Shown here one piece after another: positions 1 to 5,459 of a stretch of 5,549 nt of DNA. Source of the DNA: Clostridia bacterium (GTDB lineage Bacteria > UBA6262 > WVXT01 > JAUXBS01); NCBI GenBank assembly GCA_030618495.1, contig JAUXDE010000108.1:1-5549 (forward strand), written 5' to 3'. Below the pieces are notes generated by a model. The model searched no databases. It saw only the letters and a program-made list of their open reading frames with translations, and was not told the DNA's origin. The translations under genes were made by a program, and so were the position numbers. Position 1 is the first letter of the stretch. Each line of letters begins with the position of its first letter.

Positions 1-1145
1 GCGCCTCCGTATACAACAAGGGCTCCTGGAAAACCCCCCTGGGAACAGTTAAAGTAAACACTGAAGTAGCCAATGATATTATAAGTGAATCCGACCTATT
101 TGAATTCCATGAGCAGGCACATTTAAAGGAACATTCCATTGAAGTGGAATTACCGTTTTTACAGACAGTCCTTTCAGGATTCCAGATTGTCCCGATACTG
201 GTGAACTACCCCGAAAAAGAGCTTTGCGATAAGCTCGCCTCCGCAATCGTCAAAGCGATTAAAGGCAAGAGCGCTTTACTGGTTGCATCCACGGACATGT
301 CACACGTTTCAAATGATTATGATAAGGTAAAAAGGATGGACAAGCTTACATGCGATGCCATCAATAAGTATGACATTGAAGGCCTTTTCAGGCACATCAA
401 TACGGGGAAAGGGCAATTATGCGGCGGAGCCGCAACTCTCACCACCCTGCTTGCAAGTAAAAAACTCGGAGCTGACAGTACGAATTTGCTAAACTACTCC
501 GATTCGTATAAAGTATCCGGCAAAGAAGATTACGTGGTGGGGTACTGCGCTTTTGCAGTGACTAAAAAAACTATTTCCGAAAATAAAGGAGCAGGCATGC
601 TGAATAAAAAACAGCAGGACACTTTAGTAAAAATTGCCAGGGAAACCATAGAGTCGCACCTTGGCAACAGCAAGAAACCACGCTTTGACATCACCGACCC
701 GTTGTTAAAAGAGAAAAGGGGCGCTTTCGTAACCCTGCGTAAGGACGGCAATCTCAGGGGCTGTATAGGTTATATAATGCCCGTTGAAGAACTGTATAAC
801 GCGGTCTCAAAACTGGTAATCCAATCGGCAACGGAAGACACGAGGTTCCCTCCCGTAACCGCAGCCGAACTTAGCAATATAGAAATCGAAATATCCGTAC
901 TTACCGTTCCTGAAAAGATATCGGACATAGATGAAATAGAGCTCGGCAAGCACGGGGTAATTGTTAAGAGCGGCTTCAGGCAGGGTGTATTCCTGCCCCA
1001 GGTGGCAACGGAAACAGGCTGGACAAAAGAGGAATTCCTGAGCCATCTTTGTTCCGGTAAAGCAGGACTGCCGCCGGACGCGTGGAAGGATAATAAAACA
1101 GAGATATATACATTTTCGGCGCAGGTATTTGAGGAGAATAAATGA
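1..1145 (+). CDS. AmmeMemoRadiSam system proteins B and A fused (MEMO-AMMECR1), 5'-truncated
   Basis: The reading frame is open from base 3, so the gene starts upstream; 380 residues are visible. The GTG at 144 lies inside the conserved EHSIEVELPFLQ motif and is not a start. Visible residues 1-190 are the C-terminal part of a MEMO domain: a WKTPLG strand, EHSIE, then STDMSH (His 101) and LCGGAA (Cys 140), which match the human MEMO1 His192 and Cys244 regions. The HAGY and GPSH metal-site motifs would lie in the missing N-terminus, roughly 100 residues. Residues 199-380 are a complete AMMECR1 domain with its hallmark LRGCIG (251-256) and a TRFPPV motif. In bacteria and archaea these two families belong to a three-part system with a radical SAM enzyme; its chemistry is not settled to my knowledge and the protein is probably cytoplasmic. 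The gene ends in an ATGA overlap with the next gene. Family assignment is very secure; function is open. Confidence 0.95.
   Translation, partial: ASVYNKGSWKTPLGTVKVNTEVANDIISESDLFEFHEQAHLKEHSIEVELPFLQTVLSGFQIVPILVNYPEKELCDKLASAIVKAIKGKSALLVASTDMSHVSNDYDKVKRMDKLTCDAINKYDIEGLFRHINTGKGQLCGGAATLTTLLASKKLGADSTNLLNYSDSYKVSGKEDYVVGYCAFAVTKKTISENKGAGMLNKKQQDTLVKIARETIESHLGNSKKPRFDITDPLLKEKRGAFVTLRKDGNLRGCIGYIMPVEELYNAVSKLVIQSATEDTRFPPVTAAELSNIEIEISVLTVPEKISDIDEIELGKHGVIVKSGFRQGVFLPQVATETGWTKEEFLSHLCSGKAGLPPDAWKDNKTEIYTFSAQVFEENK
585..599 (+). promoter_or_regulatory. Internal Shine-Dalgarno and in-frame ATG at the MEMO/AMMECR1 junction
   Basis: AAAGGAG at 585-591 is followed after five bases by ATG at 597-599. 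This ATG is in the frame of the fused gene and lies in the linker, just before the first AMMECR1 helix (MLNKKQQD). Starting here gives a 182-residue protein, about the length of a stand-alone AMMECR1 protein. The site is either an active internal start or a relic of two formerly separate genes. The motif and spacing are seen directly; its use is inferred. Confidence 0.6.
1131..1136 (+). promoter_or_regulatory. Ribosome binding site for the small secreted protein gene
   Basis: GAGGAG lies five bases before the ATG at 1142, inside the last codons of the MEMO-AMMECR1 gene. With the ATGA start/stop overlap it fixes the start of the second gene and indicates coupled translation from one transcript. 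Confidence 0.75.
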
Positions 1146-1650: not shown

Positions 1651-2445
1651 ATGAAAAGAGAATCAATATTTATTTTAGTTTTGCTATTTATTACGGCTAT
1701 TCCCGTTTATCCGGCAGATATCAATGACGATGACTTCGGCAGAGATGATTATCTTGAGAGAAAGTATGAAAAGGCAAAGAGCAGGGAGGGATTCAAGTAC
1801 GTTACAATGTTCGGGGCAGTGCCCTATATAAGGACTGTTTACCTGGAACCCGGCAACGAATTCTACCCCAACAACGCCGGCATAGCGTTTCATGTAGCGA
1901 TAACTCAAAGTAAACATAATGATCTGCCGTTTCCTGTTAACCTATCAGTTGATTTCGGGTTTATTGGAACCGGCATAGAAGTGCTTCAGTCAGACGGCAG
2001 CTGGTGGGGTGCAGCCGGGGATAAAATGAACGGTTTGTGGGCGGATATCACTGTTGAAGGCGGACTTAAGATTAATGAGTTTATCAGGCCGAATGTATTT
2101 GTGGGTTACAGTTATTCTCATTACATCAACAATGCTGACATCACTAAAAAGATAACGGGGGATGGGTTATGTGGAGGGATAGGCATTAACTTCTATATCT
2201 CAAAAGAGCACTCGGTGTTCTACAGGATGCAGTTCAATACCATTAACTTCAGGCATGCATTAGCGGGAATAGAGACAGGTTCTTTCATGGGCAGTTCCAT
2301 TTCACATCACATAGGCGCCAGATACTGCATTTATCTGGATCCGTACAAGTCTTACCTTGACCGGCGTAAAAACGAGAAGAAAAAAAGGGAATATGAAAAA
2401 CAAAAAGAACCCGACCCCATAGACAAACCTGAGTTTAGCAGGTGA
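1651..2445 (+). CDS. Probable outer-membrane beta-barrel protein, unknown role
   Basis: The product has 264 residues. Residues 1-22 are a signal peptide ending VYPA. Residues 23-48 are a highly charged, acidic-then-mixed segment. Residues 49-230 alternate polar and hydrophobic/aromatic residues with many glycines: strands around 75-86, 95-110, 128-140, 147-158, 174-184, 187-198 and 217-229. This fits a small transmembrane barrel of about eight strands, of the OmpA/OMP_b-brl kind. The only two cysteines (174 and 226) sit in late strands and could pair. A 35-residue, strongly basic and charged tail (234-264) follows the last strand. GGGGAG at 1638-1643, seven bases before the ATG, supports this start. 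The gene follows the small secreted protein in the same direction and converges on the membrane synthase gene with 12 bases between. The barrel is inferred from pattern only; a periplasmic beta-sandwich is the alternative. Confidence 0.8.
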   Translation: MKRESIFILVLLFITAIPVYPADINDDDFGRDDYLERKYEKAKSREGFKYVTMFGAVPYIRTVYLEPGNEFYPNNAGIAFHVAITQSKHNDLPFPVNLSVDFGFIGTGIEVLQSDGSWWGAAGDKMNGLWADITVEGGLKINEFIRPNVFVGYSYSHYINNADITKKITGDGLCGGIGINFYISKEHSVFYRMQFNTINFRHALAGIETGSFMGSSISHHIGARYCIYLDPYKSYLDRRKNEKKKREYEKQKEPDPIDKPEFSR

Positions 2446-2457: not shown

Positions 2458-4734
2458 CTACCTGGAAATCAAAAGCAGGCTTAAACTCCCCATAACGATT
2501 ACCGCAAGGATTATACATGCCGATATGATGCCAACCAGCGGAACCAGCAGTACACCTGAGACCATAGCGCCGAGCGCGGCTCCCGCAAGGTCAGCCCCGT
2601 AAACAACTCCGGCTTCCCGCAACCCGATATCCTGCCCGGAATCGCCGTCAAACCGTATCCTGTTTGCAAGCGCAAATACTCCCCCGGTGAAACAGCCCAT
2701 AACCAGGGTCAGTATGGGAAAAACCACCTGCGCTGAAATAAATATTGCAGCATGATTCTTAAGAAGAGAGAAACATGAAAACACAACCGGCAGCGATACC
2801 AGGTAAATAATCATCAGCAACTGCGTTATTTCAAGCCATTTATACGAACTAACCTGTTTTTTTCTATTCATGTACCTGCTGCCCACAACTACACCGACCA
2901 TGTAACCCGCCGTTAATATGCCTATTTTCGTATATACGTATCCGTAAAACACCTGAAAAATGGAAATCAAAATAACCTGGCATGACATGCCCACAAAACC
3001 CGTTACCATCACGGCGAACAGGCAGGTCTTTTTCACGCCGCCCCCACGGTTGATTATCCCCGCAACAACCATCATTATGAGGATGACTATAATGAAATTA
3101 TTTGTCGTTGCCTTCTGCAGAATCCAGTTAAAAATCTTTTTTGCGTGAATATGGTAAGAGGAGACCCACAGGGCTATATCATGATAGTATGCAATCGGAT
3201 GAAAATCCGAATTTATTTTCAGATCATCGTTATCTTCAATCCTGTTTCTAACATATTTTATCCGTTCAGGATTAAGCCGGTAATGCAGGTATGAAGGTGA
3301 GATGTATTTTGTCCCTCCATGCAGGCCTGAAAGGTTCATGGAAAGAAATTCCCTCGTAACCGCAAGGCACCTTTCCTGGGACGCTACAAAAAAAGCATGT
3401 TCCCCCGGAATTACTATTACGTTCTTAAAAACCTCCTTTAATGTTTTGTAGATTGAACCGTTAAACTCCCTTAATTCATCGCTTATATAATCCTGTGACG
3501 AGCTAAGCCCTATGGAAAATATACCCGAAGGGCTCAGGGCTTCCGATGCCTCCCTGAAGAACTCGAGGGTATAAAACCTGTTTAGCTGAGCAGTTGAAGG
3601 GTCCGGGAGGTTGATGATAATGCAATCCAGCAACGGATGCGAGCTTAAATCCTTTATAAAAAACCTTCCATCCGTGTTTATTATACTGACACGCTTATCC
3701 TTCAGGGAATCCGGGTTCAGGTACTTTCTTCCAAGTTTTATAATCAAAGGGTCAATCTCAGCATACCATACCTTTTCCATGCCGGGATACTTAAGGAGTT
3801 CATCCAGGGCTCCGCTGACTCCGCCCCCGACAAGCAGGGCATTCCTGACGTTAACAAACCTCAGAAGGGGCAGGTGAACCAGTTCTTCGTTCCAAAGCAG
3901 GTCATCGCTTGTCGAAGTCAATACTCCGCTCTGGTAAAAACTGTACTGTCCGGACCTCTCGCGTACAGTGACATTTCCAAAAACCGAATCCCTTGAGGTT
4001 ACAAGTTTATAATGGCCTTCCCATTGTTTCTTAAGCATGTTTTCATATGCCCTGCCCCTGAGGGGCGTAACGGTAAATAAAATAAAAAGAACCATCAAAA
4101 TAAATAAAGAAAAGGCAGCAGGTTTTCTTTTACCGCCCAGGGCCAGGATGAAGGCAAGCAGTAGATTTATGACGCTAATCCCCAGCGCAATCGTGAAGTT
4201 ATCAAGAATATATGATAGTAGATAGGTGAACAATACTCCGCCGATTGCCCAGCCCACCGCCTCGTACCCGTAGACCCTGGAAACATCATCCGCCTGCCCG
4301 TGGTTTTTACCGTACCCGGCAAACAGCCTGCACCCGGAACTGAACTGAAGACCGAAGAGCAAACAGACTGGCGCGAGCAGCAGGAAGGGGACATACATCG
4401 TTGGCAGTATGCCTATAATCTCACCCTGTCCGACCCCGAGCATTACCCTTGTCATCTTGACCGCCATTATTGATAATGGCAGGAAAATACTTATGAGCGC
4501 TTGAATAATAACGAACAGGTTCAACGGGTCTATCCGCTTTTTTATAAGCAAACCCGCAGCGCCTGCCCCGCAAGCCTCCCATATCAGCCAGCATGCAAGA
4601 ACAATGCCTATACACAGCTCATTGCCGTAAAACACCACGAGGAGTTCGCGCAGAAGGACTATCTGGGCAACTATCGAGGATAATCCCATCACAATTATTG
4701 CCGCTACTGTTTTGTTTTTCATTTTACGATTCAT
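2458..4734 (-). CDS. Membrane-embedded spermidine-synthase-like protein (fused transporter-like/SpeE-fold protein)
   Basis: The product has 758 residues in three parts. Residues 8-223 hold about seven membrane helices. Residues 235-530 are a soluble SAM-methyltransferase/SpeE-fold domain. Residues 543-756 hold a second set of about seven helices. In the soluble domain the nucleotide-site motifs are GGGVSG (303-308), EID (326-328) and TDGR (354-357), followed by INLPDPSTAQLNRFYT (374-389), a signature I associate with the large membrane-bound spermidine/spermine synthase relatives. In classical SpeE this stretch reads DSxDP and its first Asp is catalytic; here it is Asn 375, so aminopropyl transfer to putrescine is doubtful. 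The two membrane parts are related to each other. The gene diverges from a CcdA-like gene. Two in-frame ATGs, at 4734 and 4722, lie in a 12-base duplication and neither has a Shine-Dalgarno; I keep the upstream one. Family is secure, substrate unknown. Confidence 0.92.
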   Translation of the reverse strand: MNRKMKNKTVAAIIVMGLSSIVAQIVLLRELLVVFYGNELCIGIVLACWLIWEACGAGAAGLLIKKRIDPLNLFVIIQALISIFLPLSIMAVKMTRVMLGVGQGEIIGILPTMYVPFLLLAPVCLLFGLQFSSGCRLFAGYGKNHGQADDVSRVYGYEAVGWAIGGVLFTYLLSYILDNFTIALGISVINLLLAFILALGGKRKPAAFSLFILMVLFILFTVTPLRGRAYENMLKKQWEGHYKLVTSRDSVFGNVTVRERSGQYSFYQSGVLTSTSDDLLWNEELVHLPLLRFVNVRNALLVGGGVSGALDELLKYPGMEKVWYAEIDPLIIKLGRKYLNPDSLKDKRVSIINTDGRFFIKDLSSHPLLDCIIINLPDPSTAQLNRFYTLEFFREASEALSPSGIFSIGLSSSQDYISDELREFNGSIYKTLKEVFKNVIVIPGEHAFFVASQERCLAVTREFLSMNLSGLHGGTKYISPSYLHYRLNPERIKYVRNRIEDNDDLKINSDFHPIAYYHDIALWVSSYHIHAKKIFNWILQKATTNNFIIVILIMMVVAGIINRGGGVKKTCLFAVMVTGFVGMSCQVILISIFQVFYGYVYTKIGILTAGYMVGVVVGSRYMNRKKQVSSYKWLEITQLLMIIYLVSLPVVFSCFSLLKNHAAIFISAQVVFPILTLVMGCFTGGVFALANRIRFDGDSGQDIGLREAGVVYGADLAGAALGAMVSGVLLVPLVGIISACIILAVIVMGSLSLLLISR

Positions 4735-4775: not shown

Positions 4776-4804
4776 TTGACTTAAAGGGTAAATTGCGATA
4801 AAAT
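4776..4804 (+). promoter_or_regulatory. Sigma-70-like promoter for the CcdA-like gene
   Basis: TTGACT (4776-4781), a 17-base spacer and TAAAAT (4799-4804) match the consensus at five of six positions in each box. Transcription should begin near 4811. The -10 box overlaps the ATG at 4803, which rules that ATG out as the start if this promoter is used. The -35 box touches the -35 box of the divergent promoter, and together they form the palindrome TCAATTGA (4772-4779). Confidence 0.7.
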
Positions 4805-4814
4805 GGTAACCGCA

Positions 4815-5459
4815 ATGGACATGAAAATGGCATTTGAATTATTCCTGGCGGGACTGTCGCTTGGCTGGGGGCCGTGCCTGGCTTACTGCGCGGTGATAAT
4901 CACCCCCTACATGGCGGGAACAAAAACCGGCTGGAAGAAGGGATTAAGAAACAGTATCGTTTTTTCCGCAGGACGGCTTGCCGCTTACATGCTGCTCGGA
5001 GCCCTGGCGGGTTTCTCGGGAAAGATATTCAGCTCCCTGTACCTGGCGGGCAATTTCTCAAATTACATACAGACAGCTGGCGGTATATATATCTTCCTTA
5101 TCGGCATTGCTGTCATTGCCGGAAAGAGCTCTTCTATAAGTTTATGCAGGCACCTTGACAAACACAGCATTAAATCAATGGCTGTACTTGGTTTGCTCGT
5201 AGGGCTTGCGCCCTGCGCTCCGCTTACGGGAATACTGCTCTACATGATACTTAAATGCAGCAATATCCTTGAAGGGGCGATATACGGGCTATTCTTCGGG
5301 GTAGGCACAATGCTTTCCCCCATAATAATAATCGGAGCGATAGCCGGTTTCCTGCCCGGGAAGGTTTTAAAAAATCCAAAGATTAACCTGTGGTTCCGAA
5401 GATTGTGCGGCGTTATTATAATCTATTTTTCCGTGAAACTGCTGTTACCATTAATATAG
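4815..5459 (+). CDS. CcdA/DsbD-type six-helix membrane protein (sulfite exporter TauE/SafE, DsbD_2-like family)
   Basis: From the ATG at 4815 the product has 214 residues; the ATG at 4803 would add four. Numbered from 4803, six membrane helices lie near 11-33, 53-75, 88-107, 124-148, 155-181 and 196-217. Helix 1 carries GWGPCLAYC (Cys 25, 29) and helix 4 carries GLAPCAP (Cys 138). The matching GLxxGxxPC in helices 1 and 4 shows the 3+3 internal repeat of the CcdA/DsbD transmembrane family, in which the two PC cysteines relay electrons from cytoplasmic thioredoxin to the cell exterior. No thioredoxin-like domain is attached, so a separate partner would be needed, for example for cytochrome c maturation. 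TauE/SafE-type names are used for relatives, and an ion-transport role is the alternative. There is no Shine-Dalgarno at a workable distance; the promoter's -10 box covers the 4803 ATG, so I choose 4815, which makes the message practically leaderless. Confidence 0.88.
   Translation: MDMKMAFELFLAGLSLGWGPCLAYCAVIITPYMAGTKTGWKKGLRNSIVFSAGRLAAYMLLGALAGFSGKIFSSLYLAGNFSNYIQTAGGIYIFLIGIAVIAGKSSSISLCRHLDKHSIKSMAVLGLLVGLAPCAPLTGILLYMILKCSNILEGAIYGLFFGVGTMLSPIIIIGAIAGFLPGKVLKNPKINLWFRRLCGVIIIYFSVKLLLPLI

Follow-up and report, generated by a model that had tools for sequence, protein, structure and literature searches.

A candidate internal translation start in a MEMO-AMMECR1 fusion gene, its conservation and its possible role in supplying two compartments

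The fusion gene and its genomic setting

The window (the whole stretch of 5,549 nucleotides analysed here) corresponds to contig C112 of a 1.69 Mb draft genome and opens on the forward strand with a MEMO-AMMECR1 fusion gene (3-1145), in which proteins B and A of the AmmeMemoRadiSam system are joined and whose 5' end lies beyond the window edge. The C-terminal two thirds of the MEMO domain (protein B) are encoded at 6-551 (+), with Pfam PF01875 at residues 2-183 and TIGR04336 at residues 2-186 (173.4 bits for the window part against a cut-off of 26, positions 85-270). They are followed by an inter-domain linker (552-596, +), of which residues 190-197 were predicted as unstructured (AlphaFold2 pLDDT below 50), and by AMMECR1 (protein A) at residues 209-376 of the window frame (Pfam; PF01871 positions 1-168 of 168, and TIGR04335 with 190.7 bits against a cut-off of 99).

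A Shine-Dalgarno (SD) element, AAAGGAG, was read directly at 585-591 (+), followed by a five-base spacer (CAGGC, 592-596) and an in-frame ATG (597-599, +), which is residue 199 of the window frame and residue 315 of the full-length protein and thus lies within the linker. This arrangement at the MEMO/AMMECR1 junction is exactly as it had been described in an earlier note on this DNA. The duplex energy of the SD was -7.9 kcal/mol, as estimated with an assumed E. coli-type anti-SD, the 3' end of the 16S rRNA being absent from the assembly. RNA structure at the start site gave no signal (z = -0.14). The predicted product from ATG 597 (597-1145, +) is a free AMMECR1 of 182 amino acids, beginning with MLNKKQQD, ending at the TGA of 1143-1145 and containing the complete PF01871/TIGR04335 match. 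In the AlphaFold2 model (mean pLDDT 91, pTM 0.52) the first helix of A begins at residue 202, three residues past the Met, and the N-terminus of the predicted free A matches that of a solved free protein, MM0484 (1zq7).

The ATG of the next gene (1142-1567, +; 141 amino acids) overlaps the stop codon of A (ATGA), and this gene likely shares an operon with the fusion. Its product has an N-terminal hydrophobic signal-like segment and belongs to no recognized family; the same is true of the product of 1651-2445 (+), and both genes, directly downstream of the fusion, were without Pfam or NCBIfam match. The remainder of the window contains a gene on the reverse strand (2458-4734) for a 758-residue protein, whose spermidine-synthase domain (residues 282-409) is flanked on both sides by long hydrophobic stretches and which scored below the cut-off for the fused MFS/spermidine synthase, and a gene (4803-5459, +) for a DsbD_2-type membrane protein (cytochrome c biogenesis transmembrane region).

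The first 119 bases of the window repeat the end of contig C111, and on this overlap the fusion gene very probably continues on C111, where the N-terminal part of protein B missing from the window was found. The protein joined from the C111 part (L208:2930-3394) and the window has 496 amino acids and starts with MNKKFQSISILILVLLSISSC, a lipoprotein-type signal with a lipobox, as called by hydropathy and by eye, which is crude compared with a trained predictor; a signal of the same type was seen in the same-genus genome G001. Upstream of the fusion on C111 a radical SAM gene (G000:C111:352-1356; TIGR04337, above cut-off) encodes a protein with an N-terminal membrane segment, so that all three components of the system (TIGR04335 for A, TIGR04336 for B and TIGR04337 for the radical SAM protein) were recognised by their models, with the radical SAM partner encoded nearby. 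A TatD-like gene and a protein-isoaspartate-methyltransferase-like gene with a lipoprotein-type signal, both named by sequence reading and not by family search, also lie upstream on C111. The methyltransferase-like gene (L208:2137-2880) starts with MNHALLYITIIISFIVNGC and has a counterpart in G001 (L214:860-1591). Gene order in G001 is as in the window genome; its contig stops short of the junction, and no A was found in G001.

The N-terminal membrane or signal segment of the radical SAM protein of the fusion operon (L208:151-1395) reads MKKYLKTTIISAIPVLVILALFIFTKNN in the window genome, and N-terminal membrane or signal segments were likewise present in the radical SAM proteins from four of four further Omnitrophota genomes (L254-L257). 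This suggests that the catalytic domain may face outside the cytoplasm, which would be unusual for a SAM- and reductant-dependent enzyme.

Elsewhere in the window genome, a second MEMO, without a signal, is encoded on contig C20 and a second radical SAM protein, without a membrane segment, on contig C15 (C15:18713-19669). No other A domain was detected in this genome by family searches, and the A of the fusion is accordingly a single copy.

Conservation of the SD and the ATG among fusions

For comparison, 183 distinct fusions were collected by a scan of genome contigs and a search of 384 Omnitrophota genomes, and the sample consists of the best-scoring ones. In the fusion tree the order-level group of the window was placed among the Omnitrophota sequences. 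The SD and the ATG were kept in five of five junctions from the window's order; in G002-G005 of this order (58-60% identity) the element reads AAAGGAGGT or AAAGGGGGT, with the ATG at the same residue. Among the Omnitrophota, an in-frame ATG was present in the linker of 78 of 102 fusions, and in 70 of 102 it was preceded by an SD with a duplex energy of -7 kcal/mol or below, a cut-off chosen after the first sequences were seen. When synonymous codons were resampled with the peptide fixed, the mean was 36 and the maximum in 200 trials was 47, against the 70 observed. Only 15 of 615 other Met codons of the same Omnitrophota genes (2.4%) had such an SD.

After alignment on the ATG, the strongest upstream nucleotide signal was the SD itself (G at -9 in 93%). 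It occupied all three codon phases, and the pentapeptides before the Met were of 65 distinct kinds in 70 sequences. The distance from the Met to the domain anchor was 13 codons in 47 of 70, in linkers of 25-65 residues that could not be aligned between relatives. Conservation at the nucleotide level thus exceeds what the protein would impose, and across relatives the SD and the ATG are, by these sequence comparisons, far beyond chance. The earlier note had asked whether the two would be conserved in related fusions more than the linker is, and in the relatives they were kept while the linkers diverged. Its proposal that two products arise from one gene is strongly supported by this comparison. 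Outside the Omnitrophota and the window's order most fusions are without an internal start; it was present in 9 of 76, a small excess over the codon null of 6.4.

Taken by itself, the site in the window is not exceptional: on the sampled contigs of the window genome, an equal or better duplex (-7.9 kcal/mol or below) was found at 7 of 138 internal in-frame ATGs (about 5%), and one of -7 kcal/mol or below at 14 of 138. Significance from the window site alone was therefore rejected.

The unfused relatives were consistent with an origin of the fusion from adjacent genes. The nearest A domains outside the window's order (61-62% identity; L106 from Ratteibacteria, and L107) are encoded by separate, unfused genes that begin at the same Met. 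In L029, B ends with GAAGGAGGTGTC and TAA, the ATG of A follows immediately, and the same SD stands before the TAA-ATG junction; a look for unfused neighbours with such a junction had been proposed in the earlier note. Loss of the stop codon in such a layout would yield a fusion with the SD already in place, and, judging by how widespread the fusion is and how well the SD is conserved, selection would then have kept the SD.

Export signals, standalone B and the source of signal-less A

By the crude hydropathy test, a signal-like hydrophobic N-terminus was found in 156 of 176 fusions with intact 5' ends. It was present in 77 of the 79 fusions that also have an internal start, and the signal-less fusions comprised 2 with and 18 without that start. 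Standalone B was without a signal-like segment in 19 of 20 sampled cases. Free A genes, where present, mostly begin just before the A helix, as the internal start does, and a source of signal-less A was defined as either an internal start or a separate A gene. Family searches of 153 fusion-bearing genomes gave 84 with and 6 without such a source when standalone B was present, and 4 with and 59 without when it was absent, the incompleteness of metagenome-assembled genomes (MAGs) blurring gene absence in these counts. The two characters agreed in 143 of 153 genomes (Fisher 3e-30).

Tree neighbours share history, and Pagel-type dependence tests were run on the fusion gene tree, which was used in place of a species tree. 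The likelihood ratio was 71.5 for all genomes, 48.0 for internal start against B where free A was absent, and 19.4 (p = 7e-4) within the Omnitrophota alone, where the corrected signal was modest. A simpler rule, that fusions without an internal start have a free A gene, holds mainly outside the Omnitrophota and was set aside for the standalone-B rule.

Ten of the 153 genomes break the standalone-B rule. G503 and G530 have standalone B and neither source of A, and G402, G422 and G438, which may be incomplete MAGs, keep the internal start with no B detected. Of the six genomes with B and no source, four have a plausible weaker start, as read after the fact: in G294 and G491 the SD before the ATG is weaker, G235 has a GTG at the same position, and in G039 a GTG is preceded by an SD.

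For 40 further Omnitrophota fusions, the number of family matches in the 384-genome search was also used to predict whether the internal start would be present, and the predictions were recorded before the 40 loci were fetched. By the preset criterion 30 were right (19/25 and 11/15 for predicted presence and absence, respectively; p = 0.003) and 10 were wrong. In hindsight, the linkers of five of the six false positives do contain an in-frame ATG (four with energies between -5.8 and -6.6, one with -0.4). All four false negatives come from assemblies that measure 0.8-1.2 Mb and may lack B through incompleteness.

Several variants were observed in the same searches. Omnitrophota without an internal start and without standalone B often have a much better-scoring TIGR04337 protein (E 1e-170 to 1e-193), encoded off the contig of the fusion (G434:C24, G243:C8, G255:C60, G424:C84 and others), and these genomes may use another version of the system. 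Several genomes (G050:C145, G496:C26, G501:C52, G039:C129 and others) have a MEMO homologue that is divergent and longer, at about 370-460 amino acids, and very long open frames of 1032 and 1732 codons (G442:C110 and G063:C1:919836-921239, respectively) also hold A and B domains.

A proposed supply of two compartments and the alternatives

It is considered likely that ATG 597 works as a start and that one gene gives both a B-A fusion that is exported and a free A that serves the B of the cytosol. The full-length MEMO-AMMECR1 lipoprotein would leave the cytoplasm by means of its N-terminal signal, along with the membrane-anchored radical SAM protein of the same operon, and the internal SD and ATG would give the free, signal-less AMMECR1 of 182 residues, which would remain in the cytosol as the only A available to the signal-less MEMO of C20 and the second radical SAM protein of C15. 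The fusion would let a single signal peptide export both domains, and the internal start would supply the cytosolic set with A without a second A gene. Two compartments are proposed because the full-length protein has an export signal and because the internal start tracks a separate, signal-less B; the partnership of free A with standalone B would be a physical one. The wider reading, that an extracytoplasmic AmmeMemoRadiSam system (exported fusion and membrane-anchored radical SAM) stands beside a cytosolic one whose A comes from the hidden start, the start and a separate A gene being interchangeable across phyla, is held with less assurance, though on balance it is favoured.

Among the alternatives, it is unlikely that the internal start is real and that free A only sets the stoichiometry of the fusion or regulates it in one compartment. 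The signal-like N-termini would then give no export, or free A would join the complex of the fusion, and C-terminal internal products that join or regulate the parent complex are known (archaeal type I-B Cas11b, PMC11899642; RpnS, PMC10327210). However, it would be left unexplained why the start is kept mainly alongside a separate signal-less B, why a free A gene can substitute for it and why it is rare in signal-less fusions. The suggestion in the earlier note that the start serves the ratio of fused to free A was demoted to a rival on the same ground, the export signal and the tracking of signal-less B favouring two compartments. That the fusion arose recently by stop-codon loss and the old ribosome site of A has simply not decayed is improbable, even though unfused neighbours share the layout and unfused A begins at the same Met. 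A recent relic would be confined to close relatives, with the SD decaying in older fusions; instead, fusions with protein identities of 40-60% occur widely among the Omnitrophota, and the recent-relic reading raised in the earlier note was contradicted because the SD and the ATG are kept, above the codon null, despite varying linkers. Start loss also accompanies the loss of standalone B, a link that neutral decay does not predict.

The two remaining explanations concern the element itself. An SD-like pause site for ribosomes at the domain boundary, aiding folding or export with the ATG incidental, would fit the resemblance of purine-rich Lys/Glu/Gly linkers to SDs and the finding that 54% of the ATG-less Omnitrophota linkers still contain a 10-mer at or below -7 kcal/mol; it is very improbable given that the SD stands at start-codon spacing from an ATG, that this ATG keeps a constant distance to the A domain and that the presence of both tracks standalone B. 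Least credible of all is chance or constraint on the protein, by which Lys-Gly-Glu linkers would happen to read as an SD ahead of a Met that the structure requires: under the codon null, the composition of the linkers is enough for about half of the observed cases, and single internal ATGs of the window genome score as well at the rate given above, but the excess over the resamplings contradicts this at the level of the group, and the Met is replaced by other residues in many fusions.

Internal in-frame products and proteoforms that lose a signal are both known kinds (PMC11899642, PMC10327210, PMC11005335). As in Cas11b, RpnS and the short forms of SsaQ and ClpB (PMC11005335), an in-frame start within the gene is predicted here to give a C-terminal part that is made both joined and free. 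Unlike in those cases, the long form has an export signal, so that the products are predicted in different compartments, and across phyla a separate gene can take the place of the start. The N-terminal proteoforms of Salmonella PagC/OmpX and YfhG lose a localization signal by an alternative start (PMC11005335), as predicted here. The short forms of PagC and OmpX omit little beyond the signal, whereas a complete upstream domain (314 residues) would be omitted here, and, unlike in PagC/OmpX and YfhG, a partner protein is predicted for the free domain. Compared with the known AmmeMemoRadiSam system, B and A are fused and bear a lipoprotein-type signal, the adjoining radical SAM protein has a membrane segment at its N-terminus, and the second, signal-less set of B and radical SAM protein has no A gene of its own. 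A limited literature search brought up no conserved start that provides another compartment with its only free copy of a domain and that a separate gene can replace, and none of the papers found on AmmeMemoRadiSam described what the microbial system does.

Proteins of the AmmeMemoRadiSam system occur widely, and MEMO1 and AMMECR1, their counterparts in humans, are linked to disease. If signal-less B needs signal-less A from either of two exchangeable sources, then A and B probably partner in the cytosol as separate chains, with a second version of the system outside it; and if the internal start is true, genome annotation would be missing a conserved protein product in a large bacterial group.
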